Shown: positions 9,441-22,510 of the stretch, piece by piece
Numbering within the stretch: the stretch's first letter is position 1
How the letters are laid out: each line of letters begins with the position of its first letter
Virus record (IMG/VR): IMGVR_UViG_3300042900_001023
Location: 1 to 22,568 of that record
Strand: one strand, 5' to 3'
DNA: 22,568 nucleotides
Origin: a virus
Notes under the pieces: generated by a model
Seen by the model: only the letters and a program-made list of their open reading frames with translations
Database searches by the model: none
Told to the model about the DNA's origin: nothing
Translations under genes and position numbers: made by a program

Positions 9441-9801
9441 AAAGAGCCAAATCAACATCAACGTCAGTAATATTGTTAGACAATTCATACAGTTTTTCGC
9501 TTCCAACAAGATTTAAAGAACTGCAACCAACACTTGAGCACTTCTCTAAAAGTTGATTTAACGCAATTTCGTGATCCATTGTGTCTGGAATAGCAAAAAT
9601 CCAAATATTGTCAAAACTAATATCAATAACTTCATCCCTGATGTGACGAGCCATCCCCATAACATTCAAAACTTGAGTAATATCAGGCCAAAATTTAGAC
9701 ATTTCTTCACCAATGTCCCAAATTTTGCCCATTGGACTCACAAAAAAAGCAAATCCGTCTGCTTTACGTTGAAAAACTGTTCCTTCAAACTTTGAAATCA
9801 C
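9427..9801 (-). CDS. Hypothetical protein, last gene of the replication operon
   Basis: A 124-residue protein of unknown family. It contains aromatic beta segments (FEGTVFQRKADGFAFFVSPMG, DNIWIFAIPD) and an acidic tail (DVDVDLALCISD). The start is GTG at 9801 with GAGGA five bases upstream, overlapping the preceding stop as GTGA. Being tightly coupled to the gene before it suggests a shared role. Confidence 0.75.
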   Translation of the reverse strand: MISKFEGTVFQRKADGFAFFVSPMGKIWDIGEEMSKFWPDITQVLNVMGMARHIRDEVIDISFDNIWIFAIPDTMDHEIALNQLLEKCSSVGCSSLNLVGSEKLYELSNNITDVDVDLALCISD

Positions 9802-10157
9802 GAAATCCTCACATTACAAGTCTCACAAAATTCCATATCTTGGAATTCTACAATTTTCATTTCACATTCCTTCTTACCACACGGCATCAAAACATCTTTA
9901 CCTTCAAGATAAGCCCTCAAATGCTCCATAGGGTCCGCTAAAGCAAACTGCGACTCCCCTGGGACAGGAACTCCACGCTCTGAACGCATATGTTCCCAAA
10001 CACAATACAAAACATACTCACTCAACATCATTTTATTCCGATTAGCAGCGTCAATAATCTGATTTTTTAAAGAACCGTCAACACGCAAAGCAATATTGTA
10101 TAAACGGTCCTTATATTTAGCCTTCCTGGCTGCTTTAGGCGCTATTTTTTTGTTCAT
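9798..10157 (-). CDS. Ribbon-helix-helix protein with Cys-rich tail
   Basis: A 119-residue protein. Residues about 19-58 (LYNIALRVDGSLKNQI...LSEYVLYCVWEHM) form the strand-helix-helix pattern of Arc/MetJ-type DNA-binding domains, preceded by a basic arm. The tail (about 90-116) has CGKKEC and CETC, a possible zinc ribbon. GCAGGA precedes the ATG, and the gene overlaps the nuclease gene by 23 bp. It is probably a transcriptional repressor or nucleoid-type DNA binder of the operon. Confidence 0.8.
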   Translation of the reverse strand: MNKKIAPKAARKAKYKDRLYNIALRVDGSLKNQIIDAANRNKMMLSEYVLYCVWEHMRSERGVPVPGESQFALADPMEHLRAYLEGKDVLMPCGKKECEMKIVEFQDMEFCETCNVRIS

Positions 10158-10662
10158 GTTTTTCCTGCCGAACGTTTAGCCAGTCAACAAATTCAGACCA
10201 AGGCTTCAAATGCTTTTTATTGACTGAAAGAAAGGTATCCTCTATCTTTCGAACGTTATCAAATCTTCGTGTTGTTGTCCATGTAGGCATACTAGAAATC
10301 GGGATAACTAGCAACGAGCCAGTTTCTTGACTCACCAAAACTACAGCCAATGGAAGAGGGTCTTTTAGTTTCCACCCGAATTCCGTATCAACAAAAGCAG
10401 TACTTTTAGGGTAACTGCTCGGTTTTTCACTAAAGTTGAGTCGTCGTGACTTAACTTCTATATTTCCAGACATGTTTTGAAACACAACATCTTTTTCTGT
10501 AGCAAAAGAAAGACGTTCTTTTTCGGTTTTTCTAATACTCATTGGTGTGGCCTCACATTTGATGCCCTCAGAGTTCAGTATTTCAGCAACGTACTCTGTC
10601 CACTTGTGCCCAATTTTTAATTCTTGAACAAAAAGTTCTTGACTATACCCTAAATCCTTCAT
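10135..10662 (-). CDS. PD-(D/E)XK-type nuclease
   Basis: A 175-residue protein with the nuclease core in order: helix with Glu23 (GHKWTEYVAEIL), Asp58 (EKDVVF), then a strand with Glu69 and Lys71 (NIEVKSR). This matches the PD-(D/E)XK fold seen in Holliday-junction resolvases, restriction enzymes and phage end-processing nucleases. It carries no clear DNA-binding domain of its own and lies between two ribbon-helix-helix genes. Location in the replication operon suggests work on replication or recombination intermediates, but a restriction-like or host-DNA-degrading role is also possible. Confidence 0.75.
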   Translation of the reverse strand: MKDLGYSQELFVQELKIGHKWTEYVAEILNSEGIKCEATPMSIRKTEKERLSFATEKDVVFQNMSGNIEVKSRRLNFSEKPSSYPKSTAFVDTEFGWKLKDPLPLAVVLVSQETGSLLVIPISSMPTWTTTRRFDNVRKIEDTFLSVNKKHLKPWSEFVDWLNVRQEKHEQKNSA

Positions 10663-10829
10663 TTTCCTACGTCTCTCAACACCAACAACTCCACATACTC
10701 CCTAATACTCAACCCATACCCCTCAGCCTGCGCCAACACCAACCTCTTAAAATCAGCAGACACCTTCAACGACAAAGACGCACGATCCCCAACCGGAACA
10801 ACCGGAGGCCTACCCGTCAACCGCTTCAT
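10659..10829 (-). CDS. 56-aa ribbon-helix-helix protein
   Basis: A 56-residue protein, bounded by ATGA overlaps at both ends, which supports it as real. After a basic, Pro-rich arm (KRLTGRPPVVPVG) comes the pattern ASLSLKVSADFKRLVLAQAEGYGLSIREYVELLVL, the strand and two helices of a ribbon-helix-helix domain, as in antitoxins and Arc. No toxin partner is evident; the neighbour is the nuclease gene. Confidence 0.8.
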   Translation of the reverse strand: MKRLTGRPPVVPVGDRASLSLKVSADFKRLVLAQAEGYGLSIREYVELLVLRDVGK

Positions 10830-11290
10830 ACACCCACCCTCAACAACTCAACCAATCGCGCCTCACAAACATCACGATACACCTCCAAAAAATACTCCCG
10901 ATCACCATTAGTCGTCAAACCAAACACAACATCTCCCAACTTCTGAATCGTTTCCACCACCGTCACAGCAAGCACCGGACGCTCCACACCAGAATTCAAA
11001 GCAACCCGCAACCCCTGCAACTGACCCCACGCAACAGCAGGAGAAACAACATCACTAATACGATCAGCAAACACATGCCTACGCAACAACCCAGGAGTCG
11101 GCATCACCTTAGACACCGTCGCCAACTCAACAAACTTCACACGCAACAACTCAACATCCACATCCCCCAACACATCAAACCAAGCACGAACAACATTACG
11201 CCGATCACCCTCAAACAACTCACGATTAAACATCGCAAAACAAACCGACACAAACTGCTCAAACTCCTTCGACACATCACGAACCCTCAC
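10826..11290 (-). CDS. Helicase-loader-like protein (G39P type)
   Basis: A 154-residue helical protein. The pattern of an N-terminal helix bundle, VVRAWFDVLGDVDVELL, then VSKVMPTPGLLRR and a C-terminal helix EYFLEVYRDVCEARL resembles the G39P family of phage helicase loaders, in which the PTPGxLR turn is typical. It probably helps load a replicative helicase encoded elsewhere. Two GTG codons (11293, 11290) are possible starts; 11290 gives the GTGA overlap used elsewhere in this operon. The gene carries one copy of the 15-bp repeat (10951-10965). Third codon positions are strongly G/T. Confidence 0.72.
   Translation of the reverse strand: MRVRDVSKEFEQFVSVCFAMFNRELFEGDRRNVVRAWFDVLGDVDVELLRVKFVELATVSKVMPTPGLLRRHVFADRISDVVSPAVAWGQLQGLRVALNSGVERPVLAVTVVETIQKLGDVVFGLTTNGDREYFLEVYRDVCEARLVELLRVGV
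10951..10965 (-). repeat. 15-bp dispersed repeat, copy 1
   Basis: TTTCCACCACCGTCA on + (TGACGGTGGTGGAAA on -). It lies inside the helicase-loader-like gene and is read there as VTVVE. Confidence 0.8.
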
Positions 11291-11706
11291 CACGGCTCAT
11301 CACCATCCACCAAATACCCCAAAAACCGCTCAACATTATCATGCGAACGAAAAATCAAATCCAAACTGTCATACCGACGCCCACGCTTATTCCGCCCCAT
11401 ATGAAAATCCGACTTCGAACAACCATCAATCGCACGCCGGCACACCTCCATACCAAAATCACTAATCGCAGCCGCAACACGATCACGACCCTTAACATCC
11501 AGACGCGCAGGGTTCTTCCGATTCGGTCGCATCACATGACACCAGTAGTCGTAGATTTCTTGAATGGCGCTTTCCGCCACCGTAGAACCTTTGACTGTCT
11601 GTTCTACCGTTGCTTTTGAAGGTCCGCGAACTTTCTTCTTCTTCTTCTCTGGTTTTTGAAATTCAAAAAATTCGTTTTCCATAGTATTTAATATATTAAC
11701 GTTCAA
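11287..11706 (-). CDS. Phage replication-initiator-like protein
   Basis: A 139-residue protein. After a Lys-rich N-terminal arm (PEKKKKKVRG), the domain from about residue 48 (IQEIYDYWCHVMRP..., RRAIDGCSKSDFHMG, YDSLDLIFRSHDNVERFL) is the helical module found at the C-terminus of many phage replication proteins, usually next to a helicase loader as here. It should recognise the replication origin or help load helicase. TTG at 11706 is chosen because AAAGGAAG precedes it by 5 bp; the ATG eight codons later has no ribosome site. It is the first gene of the six-gene operon. Confidence 0.78.
   Translation of the reverse strand: MNVNILNTMENEFFEFQKPEKKKKKVRGPSKATVEQTVKGSTVAESAIQEIYDYWCHVMRPNRKNPARLDVKGRDRVAAAISDFGMEVCRRAIDGCSKSDFHMGRNKRGRRYDSLDLIFRSHDNVERFLGYLVDGDEPW
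11570..11584 (-). repeat. Degenerate copy of the 15-bp repeat
   Basis: TTTCCGCCACCGTAG matches the repeat at 12 of 15 positions and keeps the flanking GC. It is coding (STVAES) and could be chance. Confidence 0.4.
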
Positions 11707-11733
11707 AGTGTCTTCCTTTCTTTACTTTGCTTG

Positions 11734-11743
11734 ACCGATCGGT
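11734..11743. promoter_or_regulatory. Palindrome ACCGATCGGT, operator candidate
   Basis: A perfect 10-bp palindrome 28 bp before the TTG of the replication operon, well placed for a repressor such as one of the two ribbon-helix-helix proteins. Confidence 0.35.
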
Positions 11744-12139
11744 ACGCGTATAGATTCTTCTCTCAAAAGGTGTTTTATTTGTGAGTTAATAAAGAATCAT
11801 TACAAGCAATGACTTTAGTTTCTCAATAGTTGAAAACTAGTAAGAGAAGAAAACCCCTTTGGAGGGGGTCCGGGGGAACCTTTAGAAAAGGTCTCTCCGT
11901 CTCAAGTGCACCACTAATAGCACTTTGCGCAGGTGACGCAAGTGTTATCACAGTTCCGACCGGTCGACCGTAGTTGTTGTCGGGCAACGTATCACGCGTT
12001 GTGGCGCGCGTGCAAGCACCGATGGGATATTTCTTTAAATATTTGAAAGATTTGTTTACATGCACGTGTTTTGTGGTTGTGCTAGGTTGATTTTTAGCCG
12101 GAGAAGTTCCCCTTTCCTTCGATGGCCACTAGGGTTGAT

Positions 12140-12198
12140 GCCTCAGGGGGTGGATGCAGGTGATGCCTCCTGAGGCTCCCCACCCGGGCGGGGGTTTT
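12140..12198 (+). terminator. Double hairpin followed by TTTT
   Basis: GCCTCAGG (12140-12147) pairs with CCTGAGGC (12169-12176), and CCCCACCCGGGCGGGG follows with TTTT at 12195-12198. No + strand gene lies close upstream, so it may be structured non-coding sequence rather than a working terminator. Confidence 0.3.
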
Positions 12199-12339
12199 CC
12201 GAAAAGTAGTTTCTTTTACCAGGTGTGCTGGACGGCTAAAAAAGCAATTTTTTTTTTGGGGGTGGTGTGCTCCCCTTACATATTGGATAGATTTATCTAA
12301 ACAGAGGAACGTGTTTATATATTTTTGACCCCTAGTGGA

Positions 12340-12870
12340 TCAGAACACCCATTCCTTTTCGTGGTGAGGGCCGCTTTCCACCACCGTCACTTGTAGCGCG
12401 TGTAAGGGCACAACATCAAACAAAAAAGAACCCTCTTCCCACATCGCACCAACAATTGAATACCCAACAACGTCTAGGATATTGTCCTCGATTGATTCAT
12501 GATTGGGGGTCCGGCCCGAAGACATCAAGTTTTCGAGACGTGCAATCTTGTCATGCATACGCACCAGGAGACCCAAACGACCGAATCGAGCAATATTGTG
12601 ATGCCCGTAGTCGCACTGTTTGCGGATCACCGTGTCTAAAACGTGCTGGGCAGCACTCGGACCTTCGAAATAGCCGTGGCGCCGGCCTAACTGCAACGCA
12701 ATCTTCCCTAAAGCAACGAATTCTTCGCTCTGGCAGCCTTCTAAACGTTCTGAGGTGTTCGAGTCGACAAAGTGATCCAGAAGGAACCTGAGGCCTTCCA
12801 GGGTGCCGGATGGTTGATCACCGTTAAAGATTCTTTCGGTGACTTCGGCTGCGGCAGTGTTCCAGTTCAT
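12340..12870 (-). CDS. DUF1599/Nmad1-like nucleotide-modification-associated protein
   Basis: A 176-residue protein. The central part (KQCDYGHHNIARFGRLGLLVRMHDKIARLENL, then ESIEDNILDVVGYSIVGAM) matches the DUF1599/Nmad1 pattern of conserved YGHxNI, HDKIARL and DxxGY. Such proteins often accompany phage DNA-base or nucleotide modification genes. The ATG at 12870 is chosen: it makes an ATGA overlap with the preceding gene and has CGGAGA upstream, whereas a longer frame to 12963 would lie inside the neighbour. Its C-terminus holds repeat copy 2. No thymidylate-synthase-like partner lies in this window. Confidence 0.78.
   Translation of the reverse strand: MNWNTAAAEVTERIFNGDQPSGTLEGLRFLLDHFVDSNTSERLEGCQSEEFVALGKIALQLGRRHGYFEGPSAAQHVLDTVIRKQCDYGHHNIARFGRLGLLVRMHDKIARLENLMSSGRTPNHESIEDNILDVVGYSIVGAMWEEGSFLFDVVPLHALQVTVVESGPHHEKEWVF
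12375..12389 (-). repeat. 15-bp dispersed repeat, copy 2
   Basis: TTTCCACCACCGTCA on +, within the end of the DUF1599-like gene (read as VTVVES). Followed on + by a GTAAGGGC tract shared with copy 4. Confidence 0.85.
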
Positions 12871-13289
12871 AAATCTCCGAGTTGGTCGACCAGGTTCTCT
12901 GGCGGGTTCTGATCGTAAATGTACGCGATATCTTTCGCCAGTGTCGACATGAACTTTTCCCATTCCTCTTCGCGTTCCTCTTCGGAGTCGAACTCTTCGA
13001 TTAATTCCTGAACCCGATCCTGGATAAATTCATCCGAATAGGCGGCTACGATAATAAAATTCGACACCCCCGGAAACAAAACCGGCCCATCACCACCCAA
13101 ACCAGACCGAGGAACATGCAAACACTTCACCAAACGCCGACCATCCGAACCCAAAAACAAAACATCCGACTCACCCCGGGACTCCCCTAACTCAAAAGAC
13201 ACATCATTCACACACTCAAACAACGCCCCAGGCAAAAAACCATCCAAACCACCCAAAAAATCAAACAAATCCCCAAAATCCTCACCCAT
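12867..13289 (-). CDS. Hypothetical acidic protein coupled to the DUF1599-like gene
   Basis: A 140-residue acidic protein of no known family. It has a Gly/Phe/Leu-rich N-terminus (GEDFGDLFDFLGGLDGFLPG), a mixed beta part (VLFLGSDGRRLVKCLHVP, FIIVAAYSDEFI) and a Glu-rich helix (EEFDSEEEREEEWEKF). ATG at 13289 is chosen because GGAAAGGG lies six bases upstream; this ribosome site is the end of repeat copy 3. The last codon overlaps the next gene as ATGA. Confidence 0.7.
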   Translation of the reverse strand: MGEDFGDLFDFLGGLDGFLPGALFECVNDVSFELGESRGESDVLFLGSDGRRLVKCLHVPRSGLGGDGPVLFPGVSNFIIVAAYSDEFIQDRVQELIEEFDSEEEREEEWEKFMSTLAKDIAYIYDQNPPENLVDQLGDL

Positions 13290-13297
13290 AACAACCC

Positions 13298-13312
13298 TTT
13301 CCACCACCGTCA
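13298..13312 (-). repeat. 15-bp dispersed repeat, copy 3, forming a ribosome site
   Basis: TGACGGTGGTGGAAA on - runs straight into GGG, giving GGAAAGGG before the ATG at 13289. This is the only copy at a translation start. Confidence 0.8.
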
Positions 13313-13404
13313 AACAAAGCACAAACACAAAAAAACATTAAAACCACAAAAAAACTTTACAACACACCCCACACCAACCAAAAACGTCAACTAACATACT
13401 AAAC

Positions 13405-13785
13405 ATGGACAACAACACCAGATTCAACCAATACCACCAAGCACTACAACAATACATCCAACGCGAAGGCAACGCACTCGTCCCCGCAACCCACACCGAA
13501 AAACTCGACGGCCAACAAATCACACTCGGGGCTTGGGTCGGCTACATGCGCCAACGCAACAAAAACGGCAAACTCCCCCAAAACCGTCAACAAACCCTCA
13601 ACAACACACAAGGCTGGACCTGGGGACCACTCAAACCAGGCCCCACAACCAAAACACTCCGCAACACCGACATCCACACACTCCGCCAAACCGGACAATC
13701 ACTCTCCCAAATCGCCGACCAATACAACCTCAGCCGCCAACGCATCCACCAAATCATCAAACGAACCACAACCACACCAAAATGA
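13405..13785 (+). CDS. Helicase-associated-domain protein with C-terminal HTH
   Basis: A 126-residue basic protein. Residues about 3-75 show the helicase-associated (HA) domain pattern: LQQYIQREGNALVP, DGQQITLGAWVGYMRQR, LPQNRQQTLNNTQGWTWG. Residues about 90-120 (DIHTLRQTGQSLSQIADQYNLSRQRIHQIIKR) are a helix-turn-helix like sigma-factor region 4. Free-standing HA domains are common in Actinobacteria and likely bind DNA. No ribosome site precedes the ATG; TAACAT lies seven bases before it, so the mRNA may be leaderless. Codons end almost only in A or C. The 3' end overlaps the next gene as ATGA. Confidence 0.85.
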   Translation: MDNNTRFNQYHQALQQYIQREGNALVPATHTEKLDGQQITLGAWVGYMRQRNKNGKLPQNRQQTLNNTQGWTWGPLKPGPTTKTLRNTDIHTLRQTGQSLSQIADQYNLSRQRIHQIIKRTTTTPK

Positions 13786-13997
13786 AACAAAACAACGAAC
13801 CCACCGCAACAGCCGTCCTCACCGGCTTCATGATCACGGTCTTGCTCACCCAGGCAGCCATCTGGGTCCCCCTCTACGTGCTCCACAAACAAAACATCGT
13901 CGCCAACCACCCCACCTGGCCACAAACAGCACTCATCGCCATCACATGGACACTCACACGCCTCTGGTGGAACAACCTCACCAACAAAAAAGAATAA
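13782..13997 (+). CDS. Small two-TM protein
   Basis: A 71-residue protein with two membrane segments (about 13-33 and 47-63) and a Lys-rich end (LTNKKE). The ATG overlaps the HA-protein stop (ATGA), so the pair is co-translated. No family recognised. It is the last + strand gene before the gene-free region. Confidence 0.72.
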   Translation: MKQNNEPTATAVLTGFMITVLLTQAAIWVPLYVLHKQNIVANHPTWPQTALIAITWTLTRLWWNNLTNKKE

Positions 13998-14149
13998 CCA
14001 CCCCACACCACACTGGATAAATCTAACCGAGACATCGGAACACCAAAAATATAGTACACGCCCGCCCACGGGGAAATCCCCGCACGGAAAAGTTGGGGGC
14101 AGCCCCGTATGTCCTACTCTTTGCGGGTCGCGTGGGGGTACAGGTGTTC

Positions 14150-14166
14150 GTTTGTACAGTACAAAC
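14150..14166. promoter_or_regulatory. 17-bp palindrome, operator candidate
   Basis: GTTTGTACAGTACAAAC: perfect 8-bp arms around one base. A symmetric site this long suggests a dimeric DNA-binding protein. It lies 83 bp before the SOS-box-like cluster. Confidence 0.55.
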
Positions 14167-14248
14167 ATCTACGGGTAAGTCTACGGGTGTTATTGGGCTT
14201 GTAATGGGGGCTGATTTGCGGGACTACCAGCACCTTTGTTTTCGGGGG

Positions 14249-14262
14249 CGAACAGGTGTTCG
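14249..14262. promoter_or_regulatory. SOS-box-like site 1
   Basis: CGAACAGGTGTTCG has the CGAAC-N4-GTTCG form of Gram-positive LexA boxes. Confidence 0.55.
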
Positions 14263-14283
14263 GGGGTCGGCGGGGGGTGGGGG

Positions 14284-14297
14284 CGAACGGGTGTTCG
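14284..14297. promoter_or_regulatory. SOS-box-like site 2
   Basis: CGAACGGGTGTTCG, same form as site 1, 21 bp further on. Confidence 0.55.
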
Positions 14298-14298
14298 G

Positions 14299-14312
14299 CG
14301 AACGGGTGTTCG
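14299..14312. promoter_or_regulatory. SOS-box-like site 3
   Basis: CGAACGGGTGTTCG, identical to site 2 and separated from it by one base, giving a tandem pair with a 15-bp period. Confidence 0.55.
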
Positions 14313-14396
14313 GGTGGGGCTACGGCGAGGGTTATGGCAGTCGTTGTGACTATTGTTCGGCATACTTTTGCCGATCTTTTTGGGGGGTGTGTCGGC

Positions 14397-14411
14397 TTTC
14401 CACCACCGTCA
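14397..14411 (-). repeat. 15-bp dispersed repeat, copy 4
   Basis: TTTCCACCACCGTCA on +, non-coding. Similarity to copy 5 extends on both sides (GCTTTCC...GTCAAGC.TTGCGTA). Confidence 0.85.
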
Positions 14412-14540
14412 AGCCTTGCGTAAGGGCGTGAGAGTGTCCTGTCGTCGCCTAAGGCGAGGTGTGTGTGGCTCTCTGTGGCTTTTTCTTATGGTCTGAGAGT
14501 GAAGTGTTCGCTTTCGTTTTTGCTTTCGTTAGGCGGTCTT

Positions 14541-14664
14541 GTAAGGCGAGGCATAAGGGGAGTGCGATAGGGCGAGGCAGGGTGGCGAGGCGAGGGGCGA
14601 GGCGAGGTGTAAGGGGGGCGAGGCGAGGGGGTAAGGCAAGGGGGTAAGGGGCGAGGCGAGGGGG
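14541..14664. repeat. G-rich GCGAGG array
   Basis: Irregular tandem GCGAGG/GTAAGGGG units on + (a stray unit also at 14453). The many G-runs could form quadruplex structures; the - strand would be a CCTCGC array. No open frame of normal composition covers it. Confidence 0.75.
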
Positions 14665-14687
14665 CACTACGATAAGGGGGTCAGTCG

Positions 14688-14702
14688 CAAGTGCTACGGG
14701 TA
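14688..14702 (+). repeat. CAAGTGCTACGGGTA repeat, copy 1
   Basis: Exact 15-bp word preceded by GTCG, non-coding. Confidence 0.7.
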
Positions 14703-14765
14703 ATCCTAGACATATACCCTATGCCTATGTCGGTCAGTCGTTATCGTTTCGTTTCGGCAGTTCGC

Positions 14766-14780
14766 TTTCCACCACCGTCA
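14766..14780 (-). repeat. 15-bp dispersed repeat, copy 5
   Basis: TTTCCACCACCGTCA on +, non-coding, flanked like copy 4. Confidence 0.85.
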
Positions 14781-14899
14781 AGCATTGCGTACCCCTACCC
14801 TAATGAGCCGTCAAAACGAAAAAAGTCCCTCCCCTACCCTGACCTGTCCTCGTTACCCTACTACCCCCTAGCGTGCTGTCTCTTAGTGTGTCCTGTCGC

Positions 14900-14914
14900 C
14901 AAGTGCTACGGGTA
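14900..14914 (+). repeat. CAAGTGCTACGGGTA repeat, copy 2
   Basis: Exact word preceded by GTCGC; another CTACGGGTA follows at 14918-14926. Confidence 0.7.
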
Positions 14915-15169
14915 GTCCTACGGGTAACTCTAGGGAGTAAGGGAGTGTGCGTGTCGGAGTATGACAGTAGGCGAGAGCGTGACAGTAGTTCAGTACCTCG
15001 TGTCTCTCTCATACCTGCCCCACATACCAATAAGCACCGCCCCACTCGTGAGAGCAAGGCAGTGCCAATAGGTGAAGTGTAGGAGTCACTGACTGACCAC
15101 CACGACAAAAGTAACTCAACTACACTTCGGAAATAGCGTAGCACAACGCTTACGCTCGTACCCGAACCA

Positions 15170-16648
15170 CTAGCCGAATACTTGAGAGACAAACCGATCA
15201 AACCCCATACCGTAATCAGAAGTAGGGCGAACGCCTGTTCGTAGTTTAGTCAGTTTGTCAATAGCGTTAGTGACATCGCTCGCAAGAATAATCCCGTGAC
15301 GCTTCACAAACTCAAGACACTCAATGTTCAGAGCATCGTGGCACTCATCACGATAACCAGTCACGCCACCATCAGTAACCCAAATGATCGGCTCACGACG
15401 CTTACGATTAGCAACCGCCCAACGAACGGCAGGGAGATCAACCGCATTAGCAGAACCACGATCAAACGGTATCTCATCAACCATACGACCGTTCTGAGCG
15501 AGAACCCACGCATTAGCAGGAAGTACGCCATTATCGTCACGGGTGAAACTCAACACTGTATAAGCAACGACAGTCGCACTAGGACTATTCAGCAACACTT
15601 CACGCACTTGATCTTTACTGATCTGAGTAGAACCCGAACAGTCAATAAGAACGATACCGCCCTTACCACGAATAGTGTGGTCAAACACTCGTCGTTGGGG
15701 GTCAGTCAAGTAACGATGAAGTCGGCGAGGACTCTTACCAACATTGCTCGCAACACGCCTACGCCCCATAGAACCATTCAGTATCACTGGCATAGGGCAA
15801 GTCTCAACGACCAACTCAAACCATTCAGGGATAGGAGTATCAGCGATAGACATCTGCTTATACTTCTCCACCACTTTCTTGATCTCGTCACGGGTAGGCT
15901 CACGGGTGTCACTAGGCTCTTTCTTGGTATCAGAGTCTTTGCTTTCACTATCGTCAGTGTCACCATCGTCAGAGTTATCGTCGTCATTGTTTCTGTCGTT
16001 GGGATTATCACCGCACAAACGATCAACCCAGTTCGCCAACATTTCGGTATAGATAAAACCGTAAGGCGTGAAGTCTGCTACGCCCTCAGCCGTACTAGCA
16101 AGACTGTGCTTACCACGACGCTTATCGTGCTTCTTTAGTTCACGCATTGCTCGCCTACCAATATCGGCAAGAACATCAGCCCACACCTTGTTATGTCGGC
16201 GTACGCCCGTAATGAATTGCCTATGGGCGTTACTACCGAGAGTTGCGATAGCAGTGCGCACCGCACCTTCCCAGTCCTCGTTAGCGACAAGACGCTCGCC
16301 TGCTTCTTTCTCAGAACCATCGGCGAGGGCTTTCATATCAAACCCTGCTTTCGTAGCGAGATAGTTCACTCGTGCTTCCTCGCAAGCGATCATTGACTCA
16401 TAAGTGGCGTGTCCACGCTGTACCCACGGTGTGTAGTCCTGTGGTGACACTTTGATATGAACCATCTCGTGCGCTCGTACCGCCTGTGATAACGGGTCAC
16501 TGCCCTGTGGAGCGACAAGACGCTTATTACTAATGACAGTGTGTGGCAAGCCACGGGTAGGTGCGCAGTCGGATACCGACCATTCACCTGCCGTAACATC
16601 AGGTCTAGTAATGATCTCAGGTAGTGGGCGATGAAGTGTCTTGCTCAT
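15170..16648 (-). CDS. Metallopeptidase-like plus VWA-domain protein (DUF2201 type)
   Basis: A 492-residue protein. The N-terminal half carries HEMVH (His60, Glu61, His64) and a likely third ligand in CEEARVN (Glu90/Glu91), the pattern of a zinc metallopeptidase (DUF2201_N-like). An Asp/Ser/Lys linker (about 213-250) leads to a von Willebrand A-like domain with the MIDAS motif DCSGS (Asp336, Ser338, Ser340) and TDGG (Asp426 region). It overlaps the ATGA end of the MoxR ATPase gene. In known MoxR-VWA pairs the ATPase remodels a protein or complex through the VWA partner. Here the partner may also cut protein. Its target is unknown. Confidence 0.85.
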   Translation of the reverse strand: MSKTLHRPLPEIITRPDVTAGEWSVSDCAPTRGLPHTVISNKRLVAPQGSDPLSQAVRAHEMVHIKVSPQDYTPWVQRGHATYESMIACEEARVNYLATKAGFDMKALADGSEKEAGERLVANEDWEGAVRTAIATLGSNAHRQFITGVRRHNKVWADVLADIGRRAMRELKKHDKRRGKHSLASTAEGVADFTPYGFIYTEMLANWVDRLCGDNPNDRNNDDDNSDDGDTDDSESKDSDTKKEPSDTREPTRDEIKKVVEKYKQMSIADTPIPEWFELVVETCPMPVILNGSMGRRRVASNVGKSPRRLHRYLTDPQRRVFDHTIRGKGGIVLIDCSGSTQISKDQVREVLLNSPSATVVAYTVLSFTRDDNGVLPANAWVLAQNGRMVDEIPFDRGSANAVDLPAVRWAVANRKRREPIIWVTDGGVTGYRDECHDALNIECLEFVKRHGIILASDVTNAIDKLTKLRTGVRPTSDYGMGFDRFVSQVFG

Positions 16649-17361
16649 CGGAGAGCGTCTACTTTCATCGCTTCTAGAACCGAACTCGCTCGTTCACCGA
16701 ACACGATCTCAGCACTCTCCTCAATGGAGAGAGTAGAACGCAGTTTGTCAAACGCATAGAACGCACGGAGACTAATCCGTTGTTTACCAGCGTCAGACAT
16801 ACGCACTGCCATACCACGCAAGTCGTCAGACAATTTCACGAGAGCGTTAGGGTGTGGCTCGCTGATACGAATACGAACGGGGAAACGGTCGGCAAGTGCT
16901 ACGGGTAGTTCTGCCATATTCTCAATGTTCGTTGTCATTACGGCAGAGAAACCGCTACGGGGAGTGTAGATACGACCTGTCTCAGGGTGTTCCCAACTAG
17001 CCGACTCAGGTGAGTCAAGAAAGTTCAGCAGGGTAGCGAACACATCGCCACCAGCCTTGTCAATTTCGTCTACGACAAGACGACCGCCGAGAGTACCGTC
17101 GCCGTTCCACGCCTTCAGCGCAGAACCGCTAACCCAAGAGAAACCGCCCTTAGCGTCAGGCATAAATGAACCCGATACTTCACTGTTGGTCATATCCTCA
17201 GTACAAGCAAGACGGAATGAACCGCCTGCTGTGTTGCCGAAAGACAAGCCAGCGAATGTTTTGCCAGTGCCAGCGGGTCCGAATAAGATAATTCGGTCAA
17301 TACCAGCGTGTAGGGCGTTGTGGAACTTCTGCCAGCAGGCAGGGAGTGTGGTGGTGGTCAT
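16645..17361 (-). CDS. MoxR-type AAA+ ATPase
   Basis: A 238-residue AAA+ protein: Walker A GPAGTGKT (28-35), Walker B LVVDEID (95-101), sensor-1 TTN (143-145) and an arginine-finger region ADRF (157-160). It is short but complete in the AAA module. It is followed with a 4-bp overlap by the metallopeptidase-VWA gene, the classical MoxR-VWA arrangement. The gene has its own promoter at 17404-17432 and a weak AGAAAGAA ribosome site. It contains copy 3 of the CAAGTGCTACGGGTA word (read as LPVALA). Confidence 0.9.
   Translation of the reverse strand: MTTTTLPACWQKFHNALHAGIDRIILFGPAGTGKTFAGLSFGNTAGGSFRLACTEDMTNSEVSGSFMPDAKGGFSWVSGSALKAWNGDGTLGGRLVVDEIDKAGGDVFATLLNFLDSPESASWEHPETGRIYTPRSGFSAVMTTNIENMAELPVALADRFPVRIRISEPHPNALVKLSDDLRGMAVRMSDAGKQRISLRAFYAFDKLRSTLSIEESAEIVFGERASSVLEAMKVDALR
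16893..16907 (+). repeat. CAAGTGCTACGGGTA repeat, copy 3
   Basis: Exact word inside the AAA+ gene, preceded by GTCGG as in the non-coding copies (GTCG(C)). Confidence 0.65.
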
Positions 17362-17403: not shown

Positions 17404-17432
17404 ACTCTAGCAGTGATTAGATCACCTGTCAA
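17404..17432 (-). promoter_or_regulatory. Promoter of the MoxR/VWA operon
   Basis: TTGACA (17427-17432), a 17-bp spacer and TAGAGT (17404-17409). The spacer holds the inverted repeat GTGAT-TAG-ATCAC (17413-17425), a possible operator. Preceded by AAACAC, as in the other promoters of this family. Confidence 0.7.
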
Positions 17433-17446
17433 GTGTTTGTTTGGAT

Positions 17447-17908
17447 TTATTTAGATTTCTTAGCCTGCTCACGATCAGCGTGATAATCACGGCACTCGTA
17501 CAAGCCCTTCTTGATCTTATGGAAGTACGGATTACCGTCTATGAACTTCAGTGTCGTTTGATATCCGAACCCTGACGCTTCCACGATCTGATCTGTCGTG
17601 AACTGTTCCCTGTCGTGTTCTCTCGCCCACTGCTCAAACGCTTTGTATTGGTCAGCACGAGCGACCTTACGGGTGTCGTCAAGCGTTACCGACGGCATAA
17701 TACGACCGATAATGGATAGCGGAACCATATAGCGACCGAGTAGTTCTTTACTGACCGTACCCTCGTACTTGGCAACGACTGCCCACGCACGAGTGATCTC
17801 TGACGCTTCACGCCATAAGTCGCTAGGGATAAAACTGTAACCGCCGTATTCCTCAGCGAGGCTACGGAGAGTGTTTTTGTATTCTGTATCCGCTTCGTGT
17901 GGTGTCAT
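17447..17908 (-). CDS. Hypothetical protein with C-terminal winged-helix-like part
   Basis: A 153-residue protein. The C-terminal third (EQFTTDQIVEASGFGYQTTLKFIDGNPYFHKIKKGLYEC) looks like a winged helix, followed by a Lys-rich end (QAKKSK). ATG at 17908 is chosen because a consensus promoter places transcription start about 7 bp before it; the longer frame to 17944 would start within the -35 hexamer. The mRNA is probably leaderless. Function unknown. Confidence 0.75.
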   Translation of the reverse strand: MTPHEADTEYKNTLRSLAEEYGGYSFIPSDLWREASEITRAWAVVAKYEGTVSKELLGRYMVPLSIIGRIMPSVTLDDTRKVARADQYKAFEQWAREHDREQFTTDQIVEASGFGYQTTLKFIDGNPYFHKIKKGLYECRDYHADREQAKKSK

Positions 17909-17915
17909 AGTGTCA

Positions 17916-17944
17916 AGCATACAAGATAACTTTCTTTCTGTCAA
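17916..17944 (-). promoter_or_regulatory. Leaderless-type promoter TTGACA-N17-TATGCT
   Basis: TTGACA (17939-17944), exactly 17 bp, TATGCT (17916-17921), then 7 bp to ATG at 17908. Confidence 0.65.
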
Positions 17945-18008
17945 GTCTTATTTTATAATAACCCTAGTATTTGATACACTGTTCTGTACCCCAATCAGGA
18001 GAACTACA

Positions 18009-18290
18009 ATGCGCAAACTATCAAGAGAAGAACTTATTGCTCACCGCGCCGCTCGTGCCGCAGCAATCAGCCCCGTTGCCGAAGTCGTCGCTGAACCCGT
18101 CGCAGAAGTCGTCACGGAAGTCGTCACGGAAGAAATCGCCCCTGTCGCAGAAGTCGTCACGGAAGAAGTTGTTACGGAAGAAGTTGTCGCCGAAGAAAAG
18201 CCTAAGCGCAAGTCCAAGAAGAACGACACTGAAGTCGCCACCGAAGAACACACTCACGACGAAAACTGCGAACACTCAGAAGAAGTCTGA
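18009..18290 (+). CDS. Acidic Val/Glu-repeat protein
   Basis: A 93-residue protein. After a basic start (MRKLSREELIAHRAARAAA) come seven-residue-like units VAEVVTE/VVTEEVV (about residues 23-63), then a Lys/Arg patch (KPKRKSKK) and a His/Cys/Glu tail (HTHDENCEHSEE). AGGAGA precedes the ATG. It is the only + strand gene in the right arm, divergent from the 17908 gene. The pattern suggests an extended or coiled protein; I recognise no family. Val/Glu repetition at DNA level (GTCGCAGAAGTCGTCACGGAA-type units) shows recent internal duplication. Confidence 0.75.
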   Translation: MRKLSREELIAHRAARAAAISPVAEVVAEPVAEVVTEVVTEEIAPVAEVVTEEVVTEEVVAEEKPKRKSKKNDTEVATEEHTHDENCEHSEEV

Positions 18291-18318
18291 AAACCTTACG
18301 GGTAGTTGGCGAGGGCAA

Positions 18319-18374
18319 ACAACCTTATAACGACGCAAAGAGAAAATTGCGAAAACTCTTATATCGCAGGTTGT
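18319..18374. terminator. Long hairpin between convergent genes
   Basis: ACAACCT (18319-18325) pairs with AGGTTGT (18368-18374), with an inner AAGAG/CTCTT pairing. It sits between the ends of the 18009 and 18415 genes and may stop both transcripts; there is no T-run. Confidence 0.35.
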
Positions 18375-18414
18375 CCATAAAGCAAGGAAATGCCGTAGCC
18401 CCAACCAAAATCTG

Positions 18415-19152
18415 TTATGCGCTGACTTTCGGCAGTAATCCCTTGTCACGCAGTTGGTTGTCCACTTCAGTTTCTAACCAGCCGAGAATGTCACTGTCAA
18501 GTTCGCTCATCTCGTCCCAAGCGTCGTAGTTCCCGTCACTTGTACCAGACTCTATTTCCTCATCTATCCTCGCATAAGCCTCACGGAACTGCTCAGGAAC
18601 TTTGTTGGCGGATAGTTCGCAACCAGCCTCAGCAACAATCTCGCCTTTACTGAACGCCATCACGCAAGAGAACGAACGACCTTCCTCATCAGACGAAACT
18701 GTGAATAAGAGTGTGGGGAACTGTCTGCTCACCTCACGGATAAGTCCGTCAGCAGGCGACCACGCAGTCTCGTAGTACGCATAGATACCGCCACTCCCAT
18801 CAGAGTGGTCAATAATTTCCCATTCCTGAATGCGAGGCGACCACTTCGTACTCCAGTTGTTGATAGCCCAGTCATACCAAGTGGTGTGACCGTACTCCGC
18901 CTTGTTTGCTTCGTACTTCTTGAGAAGTTCTTGATATTCGGGGTTGTCAGTTTCGGTACTCAAGAACACGGCACGAATAGCCAACGGTTCAGGGACGGGG
19001 AATAAGATAGTCAAGTCGTAATCAACTTGCTCAACGCCCATCGTTGTCTCAGCGAGCGACGGGTCGTGCTTACGGGTAATCGCTTCAGTGAGTTTGACTA
19101 GCGACTCACGGTCGCCCGTAACATTCATTCTGTTGTAGCACCAGTTCGGCAT
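18415..19152 (-). CDS. DUF1281/Api92-like protein
   Basis: A 245-residue protein starting MPNWCYNRMNVTGD, the signature start of the DUF1281/Api92-like family of ferredoxin-fold proteins. Later features agree: TTWYDWAINNWSTKWSP and YYETAWSPADGLI. Family members are common in phages and plasmids and their function is unknown. Expression is from the strong promoter at 19188-19216 with a good ribosome site (AAAGGGGA). Confidence 0.85.
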   Translation of the reverse strand: MPNWCYNRMNVTGDRESLVKLTEAITRKHDPSLAETTMGVEQVDYDLTILFPVPEPLAIRAVFLSTETDNPEYQELLKKYEANKAEYGHTTWYDWAINNWSTKWSPRIQEWEIIDHSDGSGGIYAYYETAWSPADGLIREVSRQFPTLLFTVSSDEEGRSFSCVMAFSKGEIVAEAGCELSANKVPEQFREAYARIDEEIESGTSDGNYDAWDEMSELDSDILGWLETEVDNQLRDKGLLPKVSA

Positions 19153-19187
19153 AGTAATCCCCTTTGGTAGTGGTGGTTATAGCGATA

Positions 19188-19216
19188 AGTATATCGGTAA
19201 ATCAAACCAATGTCAA
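19188..19216 (-). promoter_or_regulatory. Promoter TTGACA-N17-TATACT
   Basis: TTGACA (19211-19216), 17 bp, TATACT (19188-19193). About 30 bp of leader precede the ATG at 19152. AAAACAC lies before the -35. Confidence 0.8.
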
Positions 19217-19222
19217 GTGTTT

Positions 19223-19269
19223 TGTGGAAGTTCTCCATAATGAATAGGGTCGCTACGGAGAACCCCACA
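19223..19269 (-). terminator. Hairpin between two - strand units
   Basis: GTTCTCC (19230-19236) pairs with GGAGAAC (19257-19263), and TGTGG with CCACA outside it. It lies just after the stop of the 19275 gene and before the 19211 promoter, so it probably separates transcription units. Confidence 0.5.
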
Positions 19270-19274
19270 AACCT

Positions 19275-19574
19275 TTATGCCTCTTGCTTCGCTTTCGCTT
19301 TCTCAGTAAGAGACAAAATCATTTCTCGTATCGTAGAGAGTTCAGGTTCGGCAGTTGGCTTCGGTGTATCGGAGAGTTCTACATTCTTGTAGTCAATCCA
19401 ACGCTGACCGTTACCTTCCTTCGGCACTACACACAAATCAAATCGCCCGTAACACACACGGGTATCAGTGACAGTGACGGACACCTTCATTCCACTCACA
19501 TCTACCAGCCCCGACATACCTTTATAAGCGTCGGTGTCAATAGAGCCGTTCTCTTTCTTTATTGGATCGTTCAT
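19275..19574 (-). CDS. Hypothetical protein
   Basis: A 99-residue protein of unknown family: a beta-rich middle (VDVSGMKVSVTVTDTRVCYGRFDLCVVP) and a helical, Ala/Lys-rich tail (EMILSLTEKAKAKQEA). AAGGAAGGG precedes the ATG, supporting it as real. Confidence 0.7.
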   Translation of the reverse strand: MNDPIKKENGSIDTDAYKGMSGLVDVSGMKVSVTVTDTRVCYGRFDLCVVPKEGNGQRWIDYKNVELSDTPKPTAEPELSTIREMILSLTEKAKAKQEA

Positions 19575-19616
19575 AATCCCTTCCTTGTTGTAGTGATATT
19601 CAGGCTATGGGGGTCC

Positions 19617-19853
19617 CTACGCTTGTAGCGACACATCAAACCATTCTTGATAGGTGCGCCCATTCGTACGGACGAGTTCGCCGTCCTCGTAGAAGTCAAA
19701 GATAACTCCCTCGTTAGTGAAAACGACAACGCACACATTTTGTTGTGGATCGTATGGGTCTGTGGGTAGTTGGACTACGACTTCTTTACGAGAGTCTGTA
19801 ACGCAGTCAAAGTCCATACGGGTAGACCCAGTGAAATCGTGAAAGTCACTCAT
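19617..19853 (-). CDS. Hypothetical acidic protein
   Basis: A 78-residue protein, mostly beta-strand pattern (EVVVQLP, NVCVVVFTNEGVIFDFYEDGELV). ATG at 19853 is chosen because GAGGAG lies about seven bases upstream. It overlaps the end of the preceding gene by 8 bp. Unknown function. Confidence 0.65.
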   Translation of the reverse strand: MSDFHDFTGSTRMDFDCVTDSRKEVVVQLPTDPYDPQQNVCVVVFTNEGVIFDFYEDGELVRTNGRTYQEWFDVSLQA

Positions 19854-20118
19854 CGTCACTCTCCTCTAAGCGCACCCACTCATTGTCTTTCTCTCCGTAA
19901 AGAGCAAAAGCGTCACTGCCTGTCAAAGAGATAAGAGCGTCCACGCATACTCCAGCAACTTTGACATTTTCGGTTGGTTCCCAAACTTCGTTTACATCAA
20001 CACGGATAGGGAAGTCAGTAAACGAGTTCACCATATCGTCGTAGGTGTACTCGTCGGAGACTTCTACCTCAATAGATACAACGAGTTCATATGTTTGTGT
20101 GACAGTTATAGTTTTCAT
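19846..20118 (-). CDS. Hypothetical acidic protein
   Basis: A 90-residue protein with beta strands near the start (KTITVTQTYELVVSIEVEVSDEYTYDDM) and an acidic end (EESDDE). The ATG shares its A with the TGA of the gene before it (TGATG), which fixes the start and suggests coupled translation. No family recognised. Confidence 0.65.
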   Translation of the reverse strand: MKTITVTQTYELVVSIEVEVSDEYTYDDMVNSFTDFPIRVDVNEVWEPTENVKVAGVCVDALISLTGSDAFALYGEKDNEWVRLEESDDE

Positions 20119-20609
20119 CAGTACCAAGTCGTAAATCCGTCGGCTTCACGGGCAACGAAACGCAACCACCAAATCAGGTAGCGCACATCGTCAGCGAGTT
20201 CCTCGCCGTCAATAATGAAAGTGTTGTCGTGTTCGGTGAGCCACTCATTGAGAGCGTCCTCAATCGTATTAGCAAACAACTCGCAGTCGTCTACGCCGAG
20301 AGAGTCGTCGTCACCGCCGTACATTGAGTAATCAGAAACGCCCAAGTGTTCTAGTAAGTGAACGCCCCACTTACCCCGATACCAACAGTCAGTACCGAAC
20401 ATACCGTGAACCGCACCCTTCTCAGGTAGGTCAGGTGAATTGAGATACGGACACGCTCCCGCTTCTTTCGTCGCAGTACACGACATCACAAGTTTCGTCG
20501 TGCCGTCAGCGTGTAACTTTGTCGCACCTTCAGCGTCCAGTTCAGGAACAAACACGGCTACGCCTCGTGCCTTACACGGGTACTCTTTCGGAATATTGTC
20601 TAAACCCAT
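20118..20609 (-). CDS. Hypothetical protein
   Basis: A 163-residue acidic protein. The N-terminal half has two Cys/Gly/Pro-rich stretches (YPCKARGVAVFVP, AGACPYLNSPDLPE), and the C-terminal half an acidic helix (DCELFANTIEDALNEWLTEHDN). ATG at 20609 is chosen because GGAAGG sits eight bases upstream and it avoids the previous stop; a GTG at 20618 would overlap it. Unknown. Confidence 0.7.
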   Translation of the reverse strand: MGLDNIPKEYPCKARGVAVFVPELDAEGATKLHADGTTKLVMSCTATKEAGACPYLNSPDLPEKGAVHGMFGTDCWYRGKWGVHLLEHLGVSDYSMYGGDDDSLGVDDCELFANTIEDALNEWLTEHDNTFIIDGEELADDVRYLIWWLRFVAREADGFTTWY

Positions 20610-20610
20610 T

Positions 20611-20955
20611 TCATTCACCTTCCATCGGAATGTTCTCGCCGTAATTGGCTTTACCGTGTTTCATTTCGTCATAGCACTCAGTGTGATAGTTGCCGTAGTG
20701 GAACTTGCCACCATCGTCCTGAAACTCCACACGAGTTTCGCAGTCAAGATAAATTGGTTTGTCGCACTCGTCGCACTCAAACCCAGCGCACTCAGCACAC
20801 GCATACCCATCTAGGTATTCGCCCGTTTCCTCGTCCTCACGGTCAGCAGGAATACGGTTCACGAACTTGCCGATAAGCGAACCGTCCTCACGGACAGAGC
20901 CAAACGCAGTGAAGTCACCGCAGTAAATACAAGGGTCAAAGATGTTGGTGGTCAT
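20611..20955 (-). CDS. Zinc-ribbon-like Cys-rich protein
   Basis: A 114-residue protein with CxxC pairs: CIYCGD (near the start), CAEC, CDEC (middle) and a later HTEC, enough ligands for two or more zinc sites. ATG at 20955 is chosen because a perfect promoter ends seven bases before it, so the mRNA is probably leaderless. It is probably a metal-binding adaptor; no family is claimed. Confidence 0.72.
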   Translation of the reverse strand: MTTNIFDPCIYCGDFTAFGSVREDGSLIGKFVNRIPADREDEETGEYLDGYACAECAGFECDECDKPIYLDCETRVEFQDDGGKFHYGNYHTECYDEMKHGKANYGENIPMEGE

Positions 20956-20962
20956 ACTTGTC

Positions 20963-20991
20963 ATTATAGTCCTAAGCCTCGTCGCTGTCAA
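20963..20991 (-). promoter_or_regulatory. Perfect consensus promoter TTGACA-N17-TATAAT
   Basis: TTGACA (20986-20991), 17 bp, TATAAT (20963-20968), then seven bases to ATG at 20955. AAAAAAC precedes the -35. Confidence 0.85.
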
Positions 20992-21421
20992 GTTTTTTGT
21001 TTTCCTTAGACCATCTGTAACCTTGTCGCATACCGTCCATTACCGTCGTGTTGTATTCGTTCCACATTGTGTCGTCATTGAGAATGTAGTCAGCGACACT
21101 AGACAGTTCCTCATCGGTGGCTACTTCGGCAGTCCAAGTGAGATAGGCAATATCGTCGTCGTCGGTAGCAAAACCTTGAGAGAGTGCTTCCTCTGCTTCG
21201 CTACGGAGAGATGACGGAGAGAACGCCACCGTGTTACGGAACGATAAGTCCGTCAGGTTGAGTGGCTTACCGAGTCGTCCAGCGATCTCAACGACATCAG
21301 AGTCGTCACCATCGTTTACGAGGGCAGTGTCGTGATCGTCAAGTTTCTCCACATCAACGATGACACATTCGTCAGCGTCAATGATAGTTCCTGTACCGAT
21401 ATGGATAATGAGTTTCGTCAT
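20972..21421 (-). CDS. Hypothetical acidic protein
   Basis: A 149-residue acidic protein: MTKLIIHIGTGTIIDADEC start, a central SFRNTVAFSPSSLRSEAEEAL helix, and a C-terminal WNEYNTTVMDGMRQGYRWSKENKK helix. GAGGAGA precedes the ATG, which overlaps the previous gene as ATGA. I recall similarly starting small proteins in actinophages but cannot name a function. Its 3' end overlaps the promoter of the next gene. Confidence 0.75.
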   Translation of the reverse strand: MTKLIIHIGTGTIIDADECVIVDVEKLDDHDTALVNDGDDSDVVEIAGRLGKPLNLTDLSFRNTVAFSPSSLRSEAEEALSQGFATDDDDIAYLTWTAEVATDEELSSVADYILNDDTMWNEYNTTVMDGMRQGYRWSKENKKLDSDEA

Positions 21422-21615
21422 TTCGCTTTCTCCTCTTCCATCATTGCTAAGAAGTCCAAGTCGGGGTCAAGTTCTCTGTCCTGAGCCTCAAACTCGTATT
21501 CGTGCGTCTTGATTGCGCCGTCAATAACAATGTGACGGGCTTGGTGTATTGCGTCGTCCTCGTTCTCTGCTTCCACATTCACGGACGCAAAAATGCCTAC
21601 ACGGTAATACTTCAT
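21418..21615 (-). CDS. Small protein with VEAExEDDAI motif
   Basis: A 65-residue protein starting MKYYRVGIFASVNVEAENEDDAIHQARHI, the strand-acidic-helix pattern of DpnD/PcfM-like small proteins. ATG at 21615 is chosen: it has TAGGAGA upstream and makes an ATGA overlap with the gene before it. It resembles its upstream neighbour (VEAENEDDAI versus IEAESEDEAL), so the two look like a local duplication. Confidence 0.72.
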   Translation of the reverse strand: MKYYRVGIFASVNVEAENEDDAIHQARHIVIDGAIKTHEYEFEAQDRELDPDLDFLAMMEEEKAK

Positions 21616-21791
21616 TCGGTTTCTCCTAAGTCGTCGTTGTTTACGATTTCTATATCTAAGAACTCGCAACAGTTGGCGAGTCCGTCACCATCAAGGGCGT
21701 GAAGTTCTTGCGAGCCGAGTTTTAGTGCCTCGTCCTCACTCTCAGCCTCTATCTCAAGGTGAACAATGTACTCAATGTGGTAGGTGGTCAT
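21612..21791 (-). CDS. 59-aa paralogue of the next gene
   Basis: A 59-residue protein, MTTYHIEYIVHLEIEAESED..., then a Cys pair (CC) and an acidic end. The start lies seven bases after a promoter (leaderless), and the stop overlaps the next start as ATGA. Similar in pattern to the DpnD/PcfM-like family. Confidence 0.72.
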   Translation of the reverse strand: MTTYHIEYIVHLEIEAESEDEALKLGSQELHALDGDGLANCCEFLDIEIVNNDDLGETE

Positions 21792-21798
21792 AGCGGTA

Positions 21799-21827
21799 AG
21801 TTTATCCCCTTATGTTTGTAATCACAA
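21799..21827 (-). promoter_or_regulatory. Leaderless-type promoter TTGTGA-N17-TAAACT
   Basis: TTGTGA (21822-21827), 17 bp, TAAACT (21799-21804), seven bases to ATG at 21791. The -35 is the weakest of the family, but the spacer and -10 match the 22482 promoter (ATAAGGGGATAAACT). Confidence 0.6.
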
Positions 21828-21846
21828 CCTTACGGGTGAGATTTAT

Positions 21847-22134
21847 TTAGCAGTAATAAATATCTGTGATACTCATTAGCGTGAGCGTCATATCTGTCCA
21901 CGCATTACCGACAGTGCTATTGGTGAGTTTGATCACTTCATTCTCAACGGCAACGACCTCACCATCAAAGATGTAACCCTCTTTGGTCGTAACGAGAACG
22001 GTCTGATTGACAAGTGCTTTGAGCACGGCTGACTCATGCCATGCTGTCCATTCATCGTGAAGTGTGATGGTGAATGGTGCTTTATGTAGGTTGCCCCTGT
22101 GTGACATCTCTGCCATTTCTGAAGTCCAGTTCAT
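21847..22134 (-). CDS. Hypothetical protein with Sm/SH3-like barrel pattern
   Basis: A 95-residue protein. The C-terminal 55 residues (NQTVLVTTKEGYIFDGEVVAVENEVIKL..., MTLTLMSITDIYY) have the strand-turn-strand spacing of Sm-like or SH3 barrels, where the final strand carries the I-D-I pattern. GAAAGG precedes the ATG, which overlaps the previous stop as ATGA. RNA binding would be possible but is not shown. Confidence 0.72.
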   Translation of the reverse strand: MNWTSEMAEMSHRGNLHKAPFTITLHDEWTAWHESAVLKALVNQTVLVTTKEGYIFDGEVVAVENEVIKLTNSTVGNAWTDMTLTLMSITDIYYC

Positions 22135-22475
22135 GCCAAAGCCTTTCTGATACGACTCGCTAATGCGTCTGCTTGTGAGCCACGACCATTAAAGTCGTTG
22201 TTGGAGTCAACTCCCAACTGACCGCATAGCCAATATAGGAAAGTGAGGTTGTATACGCCTTTGAGTTTTTCCATCGGCTTACCGTCCTTGCCGAAGATGG
22301 TGGACTTGTGATCCGATTTGTCGGACTTGTAGGTGTGAATGAGTTTCGCTTTACGCAGTTCGTCCTCAGAGAAGTGAGGTGCGTAGAACGACGGACTAAA
22401 GATGGTGTGTCCGTCGCCGATGATCTTCCCGTCGGCGATAGCGTCTTTGGTTCGTTGTAAGAGTGTGGTGGTCAT
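22131..22475 (-). CDS. Hypothetical protein
   Basis: A 114-residue basic protein of unknown family. It has a polar N-terminal half (HTIFSPSFYAPHFSEDELRK), a Lys-rich middle (TYKSDKSDHKSTIFGKDGKP) and a helical end (SQADALASRIRKALA). The start lies six bases after a promoter, so the mRNA is probably leaderless, and the gene begins ATGACCACCAC like its neighbours. Confidence 0.72.
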   Translation of the reverse strand: MTTTLLQRTKDAIADGKIIGDGHTIFSPSFYAPHFSEDELRKAKLIHTYKSDKSDHKSTIFGKDGKPMEKLKGVYNLTFLYWLCGQLGVDSNNDFNGRGSQADALASRIRKALA

Positions 22476-22481
22476 GGCAGT

Positions 22482-22510
22482 AGTTTATCTCCTTATGCTT
22501 GTTATGTCAA
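22482..22510 (-). promoter_or_regulatory. Leaderless-type promoter TTGACA-N17-TAAACT
   Basis: TTGACA (22505-22510), 17 bp, TAAACT (22482-22487), six bases to ATG at 22475. AAAACAC precedes the -35. Confidence 0.75.

Follow-up and report, generated by a model that had tools for sequence, protein, structure and literature searches.

A dispersed, single-orientation sequence word marks one operon in a family of uncultured phages and is a candidate site for its control

Why would a virus keep the same 15-base word at several places, always in the same orientation? The question is raised by IMGVR_UViG_3300042900_001023, a virus record of IMG/VR that consists only of a 22,568-base contig, referred to as the window in this study, in which the word TTTCCACCACCGTCA occurs in five exact copies (copies 1 to 5 in Table 1). 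In agreement with a first-pass annotation, a direct count placed all five on the plus strand and none on the minus strand, and the number is not due to chance: about 3.9e-5 exact copies are expected from the composition of the window, and eight matches with at most three mismatches were found versus 0.8 in shuffled sequences. The 12/15 copy reported in that annotation does exist, although it begins at 11571 rather than at 11570; as it retains the core (CTACGGTGGCGGAAA), it was counted as a sixth site. The remaining two three-mismatch matches, at 8543 and 20705, are at chance level. Copies 4 and 5 do agree beyond the word (GTCAAGC.TTGCGTA on the plus strand), as had been noticed. Every copy falls among minus-strand genes that form one block, and the natural reading of the element is therefore that of the transcribed strand, TTGACGGTGGTGGAAAG; there the word is TTGACGGTGGYGGAARR and its core ACGGTGGNGGAW. 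Based on the comparisons described below, we lean towards the view that it is a polar protein-binding site, similar to an operator or stoperator, that would control the operon.

An initial scan of IMG/VR returned several contigs with at least three copies; except for the word, their contexts bore no relation to the window. In a 64,113-base relative, the five copies of the window are present at identical spacing together with two more. To avoid searching by the word itself, the helicase-loader-like protein (window positions 11287-11706) was used as the query. Across the 78 loci thus found, the loader strand had 281 instances of the 15-mer (up to 2 mismatches) and the opposite strand two. When the search was widened to a second protein of the operon and to further loader members, the core counts were 534 versus 14 by strand. 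All 14 came from three loci, L515-L517, in which the protein match and the motif operon lie on opposite strands; the match there is probably spurious. When these three were removed from the total set of loci, the core ACGGTGGNGG(A/T) was found 982 times on the operon strand and five times on the other, while a control word, the core read backwards, gave eight and three in the same loci. Thus, the strict polarity first seen in the window is kept in relatives.

The same element marks one operon in a large family of uncultured phages, with 371 non-redundant copies at 91 loci; many loci overlap, and redundancy was reduced by de-duplication on the flanks. It should be noted that IMG/VR records may be fragments. 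Each phage carries 5 to 12 copies within a single operon. In a 145-kb record all copies lie within the first 15 kb, and the confinement also holds in records of 118-172 kb, which speaks against the replication or recombination sites listed in the first-pass annotation; a protein-binding site or an RNA element, also among its options, agrees better with the data. The phages appear to infect Actinobacteria, a host assignment that rests on WhiB-like genes adjoining the operon, and are apparently lytic: no tyrosine integrase was found in 12 records and no serine recombinase in 15, with positive controls in both searches, although the records may be incomplete. An integrase-based temperate lifestyle was consequently dropped. 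One contig with the phage module and four copies (L295) has been binned in a metagenome-assembled genome of Gammaproteobacteria; it is probably mis-binned because these phages carry WhiB-like genes.

A core that is nearly invariant over very diverse phages, and polar, might also be the site of a conserved host factor related to transcription or recombination, kept because the host protein is constant; GGTGGTGG, part of the element, resembles Chi-type words. We consider this improbable, as the element is restricted to one operon and is not spread genome-wide even in records of 140-172 kb. In addition, a scan of 84,980 host species for the 17-mer gave single scattered matches, and the only locus with multiple copies carries this phage module.

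The anatomy of the site was determined from the 371 non-redundant copies. The core is ACGGTGGYGGA(A/T), preceded by the pair TG in most phages and by NN in one group, and followed mostly by AG or GA. The logo is bipartite and asymmetric: A/T is preferred at positions -6 and -5, an A/T-rich spot lies about 8 bp upstream of the core, and nothing is conserved downstream. The upstream box is YGC(A/T)(A/T) in window-type phages and CAAC in others. As many copies start with TTGAC, share one orientation and are often near gene starts, the element might be a promoter repeated ahead of genes, either for sigma70 (with TTGACG as -35) or for a phage RNA polymerase. This is still less probable than a host-factor site. 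No -10 was detected at any spacing over 369 copies, including 16-18 nt, and identity with a sigma70 promoter was rejected on that ground; there are no conserved downstream bases, and many phages have NNACGG in place of TTGACGG. For the phage polymerase, no PF00940 (T7-type) match was obtained in 12 records, though no control genome matched either. Finally, canonical sigma70 promoters exist separately. Five of them, distinct from the element sites, are present on the minus strand of the window at 22510, 20991, 19216, 17944 and 17432, with 10 to 12 matches of 12 and a spacer of 17.

The word stands out from its surroundings. In alignments of diverged relatives, in which the motif was not required in the partner, the site is approximately 97% conserved versus 80% for the flanks, with sharp edges. 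In one relative (L194), the helicase-loader-like homologue of the gene holding the 11571 copy has an intact copy. Placement, which rests on a simple home-made gene caller, points in the same direction: 83% of the copies lie outside co-directional genes versus 48% of random positions in the same regions, and 6% versus 43% lie well inside genes. Within 40 nt of called starts are 18% of the copies (10% in the control), and near gene ends are 20% (again 10%). Moreover, the site wanders in homologous genes, being N-terminal (MTVVE, MLTVVED), in the C-terminal tail (IDGGG, LTVVESNQE) or intergenic. These results bear out the earlier claim that what is selected is the nucleic acid and not only the protein. 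A loss of orientation in relatives, or no enrichment outside genes, had been named as counting against the word; the counts above (982 versus 5; 83% versus 48%) are the opposite.

The idea that the word is a functionless coincidence, due to a favoured Val-Val-Glu codon string or to shared ancestry, draws on copies within genes, as copies 1 and 2 lie inside minus-strand open reading frames in the TVVE-reading frame and TVVE accounts for 45 of 63 frame counts. It is scarcely credible given that most copies are outside genes and occupy differing places in homologous genes, and the conservation footprint in diverged relatives refutes it. In summary, the comparisons demonstrate, at the level of sequence, a phage family, a common core, a single orientation, a footprint, avoidance of gene interiors and confinement to one operon.

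Table 1. Element copies, genes and promoters in the window (positions in the 22,568-base contig; element copies are given on the transcribed strand)
Feature	Position	Strand	Remark
56-aa ribbon-helix-helix protein with GRP arm	10659..10829	-	candidate binding protein
Copy 1 (TGACGGTGGTGGAAA on transcribed strand)	10951..10965	-	inside gene 10826-11293; reads VTVVE
Helicase-loader/replication-initiation-like gene	11287..11706	-	in operon
Sixth copy (CTACGGTGGCGGAAA)	11571..11585	-	core intact; N-terminal codons of helicase-loader-like gene
Copy 2	12375..12389	-	final codons of DUF1599-like gene (VTVVES)
Conserved operon gene	12867..13289	-	function unassigned
Copy 3	13298..13312	-	between gene 12867-13289 and divergent HA-sigma4 gene
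Helicase-associated domain plus sigma-region-4-type helix-turn-helix (HA-sigma4)	13405..13785	+	candidate regulator; antisense in operon
Copy 4	14397..14411	-	non-coding
Copy 5	14766..14780	-	non-coding; cgcaa.gct just upstream common to copies 4 and 5
VWA-like and MoxR-type AAA ATPase gene pair	15170..17361	-	upstream part of same operon
Conserved operon gene	17447..17944	-	probable winged-helix C-terminus
Span with five canonical sigma70 promoters (TTGACA-17-TAnnnT)	17404..22510	-	upstream of element copies

How might such a site act? Along an early/replication operon there is roughly one copy for each gene or gene junction. A phage-made DNA-binding protein would occupy the sites once it has accumulated, and the occupied sites could then hinder transcription through the operon, in the manner of stoperators, or its initiation near the sites. 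The outcome would be negative feedback on the early genes. Our leading candidate for the reader is, tentatively, the ribbon-helix-helix protein whose gene lies at the operon end. Of 15 motif-bearing records 14 encode it, and the remaining contig ends before its place; seven of 11 members matched the NikA-like family PF21983. A single-sequence structural model shows two helices and no visible strand, at low confidence. Residues of the strand follow the motif variants in a loose trend, from which no claim is drawn. Close to this gene, another ribbon-helix-helix-like gene (9798-10157, minus strand) may encode a zinc ribbon and has a weak match to an Arc-like repressor in PHROG; similar pairs are seen in relatives.

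The second candidate, HA-sigma4, is a more doubtful reader. Its gene is antisense to the motif strand in all 181 matches (redundant loci), and in 46 non-redundant loci a copy often lies no more than about 70 bp from one of the gene's ends. Its model has two domains joined by a linker, and a fold search with this model gave no significant match. As the sole reader it is weakened; it may read the same sites in those phages that have it.

Several related words were seen in this context. One record (G021, locus L450) has no exact core, yet it encodes both candidate proteins and carries a variant dispersed element, ACGGYGGCGTATATAAA; at this locus the variant CAAYCTGAACGGYGGCGTATATAAA is present in 5-6 copies. 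Two others, G018 and G019, have their own dispersed word, CAATGGTGTCCCTA, and a diverged ribbon-helix-helix protein. The same word is found in L523 and L527, loader-gene relatives that do not have the core, in 6-7 copies of one orientation, two of them in tandem. L459 (158,714 bases) and L460 (57,755 bases) carry AATAGATAAGTC dispersed in about 27 copies within 20 kb, mostly in one orientation; this word differs from the main element though its phage bears the motif.

A number of observations weigh against a protein-binding site read by these candidates. Symmetric or repeated sites are the usual targets of ribbon-helix-helix dimers, whereas the element is asymmetric. HA-sigma4 is not present in six motif-bearing records (G004, G007 and G014-G017), which belong to one sub-clade and include fragments, and it is therefore unlikely to be the sole reason for motif conservation. 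Since the genes concerned move together as a single syntenic module, their co-occurrence is a lead and weak evidence for a partner. The constancy of the core across diverse phages is unlike the diversifying sites of immunity repressors and would also fit a host factor. Lastly, ACCACCA, which is complementary to GGTGGTGG of the element, could pair with the motif in RNA. On the minus strand of the window it is found only just after the five promoters, at 22472, 20952, 19177, 17387 and 17358, and in other loci CCACCA lies within 45 nt of 22 of 83 promoters, the control stretch giving 6 of 83 (p=0.0015).

This complementary ACCACCA, found close to all five promoter starts, keeps an RNA element in contention as a less probable reading. 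The transcript UUGACGGUGGUGGAAAR would then be bound by a protein or pair with another RNA (e.g. ACCACCAC, close to where early transcripts begin), setting mRNA decay or translation. Consistent with this, the element always has the sense orientation of the operon, its tolerated changes are mostly transitions, it is enriched beside start codons, and GGAAAGG could act as a Shine-Dalgarno sequence in some copies; copy 3 ends 8 bases ahead of the ATG (13289) of gene 12867-13289, the position of a ribosome site. However, only the 18% noted above are near called starts and many copies are distant from any gene start, e.g. copies 4 and 5 of the window. Motif RNA is not more accessible than with shuffled flanks (0.383 versus 0.401, p=0.10), and no Rfam family matched, which makes a structured RNA improbable.

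Returning to the protein-binding site, a bolder and rather unlikely extension is a lineage-wide "operon code" in lytic phages. Most gene junctions in the early operon would carry a near-invariant polar site contested by two phage regulators, the end-of-operon ribbon-helix-helix protein and the antisense HA-sigma4, so that elongation is metered without lysogeny, possibly together with pairing to ACCACCAC. As the site is unusually constant and the candidate partners are small, easily made proteins, one-way stopping or metering of transcription is directly testable.

Other features of the window were recorded as well. The five promoters share closely similar bases directly before the -35, and three have an ATG 6-8 bases past the -10, which suggests leaderless mRNAs. 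Nearly every phage of the family encodes a MoxR-type AAA ATPase beside a VWA/metallopeptidase-like protein, and the latter protein had no match in isolate phages. Two long stretches, 13998-15169 and 11707-12339, are without a convincing gene. Repeats of the GAGGCGAGGGG type lie within 14579-14663 and of the CTACGGGTA type at 14683, 14895 and 16888.

Has such an element been described before? A tblastn search of operon proteins against 50,697 annotated phage records revealed no close isolate relative for the proteins tried, the core is not present in the freshwater phage record MW202803, and the word was not found in the full text of open papers. Thus, judging by sequence, no described element appears to match it among those papers and the systems compared below. 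The 12-bp core can serve as a signature for detecting this phage family and for orienting its early operon in metagenomes.

The start-associated sequences of cluster K mycobacteriophages, GGGATAGGAGCCC, precede start codons by 3-7 bp in virtually every case (PMC3203893). Like our element, they are short asymmetric words of essentially one orientation in the non-structural gene region, and the element is sometimes in the position of a ribosome site. The analogy, drawn in the first-pass annotation from copy 3, fits this minority and fails for the rest, many of which are in gene ends, non-coding DNA or gene interiors. The consensus is not GGGATAGGAGCCC either, and with 18% of copies within 40 nt of a called start versus 10% in the control, the element is not a member of this class. 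Small phage regulators of the Arc/NikA-like type share the fold class of the leading candidate (PF21983, seven of 11 members). Their targets are mostly one or two symmetric operators, while the sites here are many and asymmetric.

The closest resemblance is to the stoperators of cluster A mycobacteriophages such as L5 and TipsytheTRex. Stoperators of the L5 type are asymmetric sites bound by a monomer with two DNA-binding domains, and their reversal abolishes repression (PMC9283540); they are predominantly in one orientation (PMC6550527). In common with them, the element is a short asymmetric site, dispersed in many copies in phages of Actinobacteria, with one orientation relative to transcription and mainly outside gene interiors. 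The L5 site also carries CTTGAC on the transcribed strand. The differences are nonetheless substantial. The consensus is CTTGACGGTGGTGGAAAG, whereas that of L5 is CTTGACAKCCACC; there are 5-12 copies in one operon rather than 20-30 genome-wide; the core stays constant although the phages that carry it are very diverse; and the searches for tyrosine and serine integrases found none. Four candidate proteins, the only ones compared, were profiled against the PDB and gave no match to a cluster A repressor (L5 gp71 family). By analogy, the element would work like cluster A stoperators without being one of them, since its consensus differs and no integrase was found in its phages. This suggests that directional arrays of stoperator-like sites are not peculiar to temperate mycobacteriophages, and that they would also be a hallmark of the early operon in a large group of uncultured Actinobacteria phages, a family in which no integrase was found.

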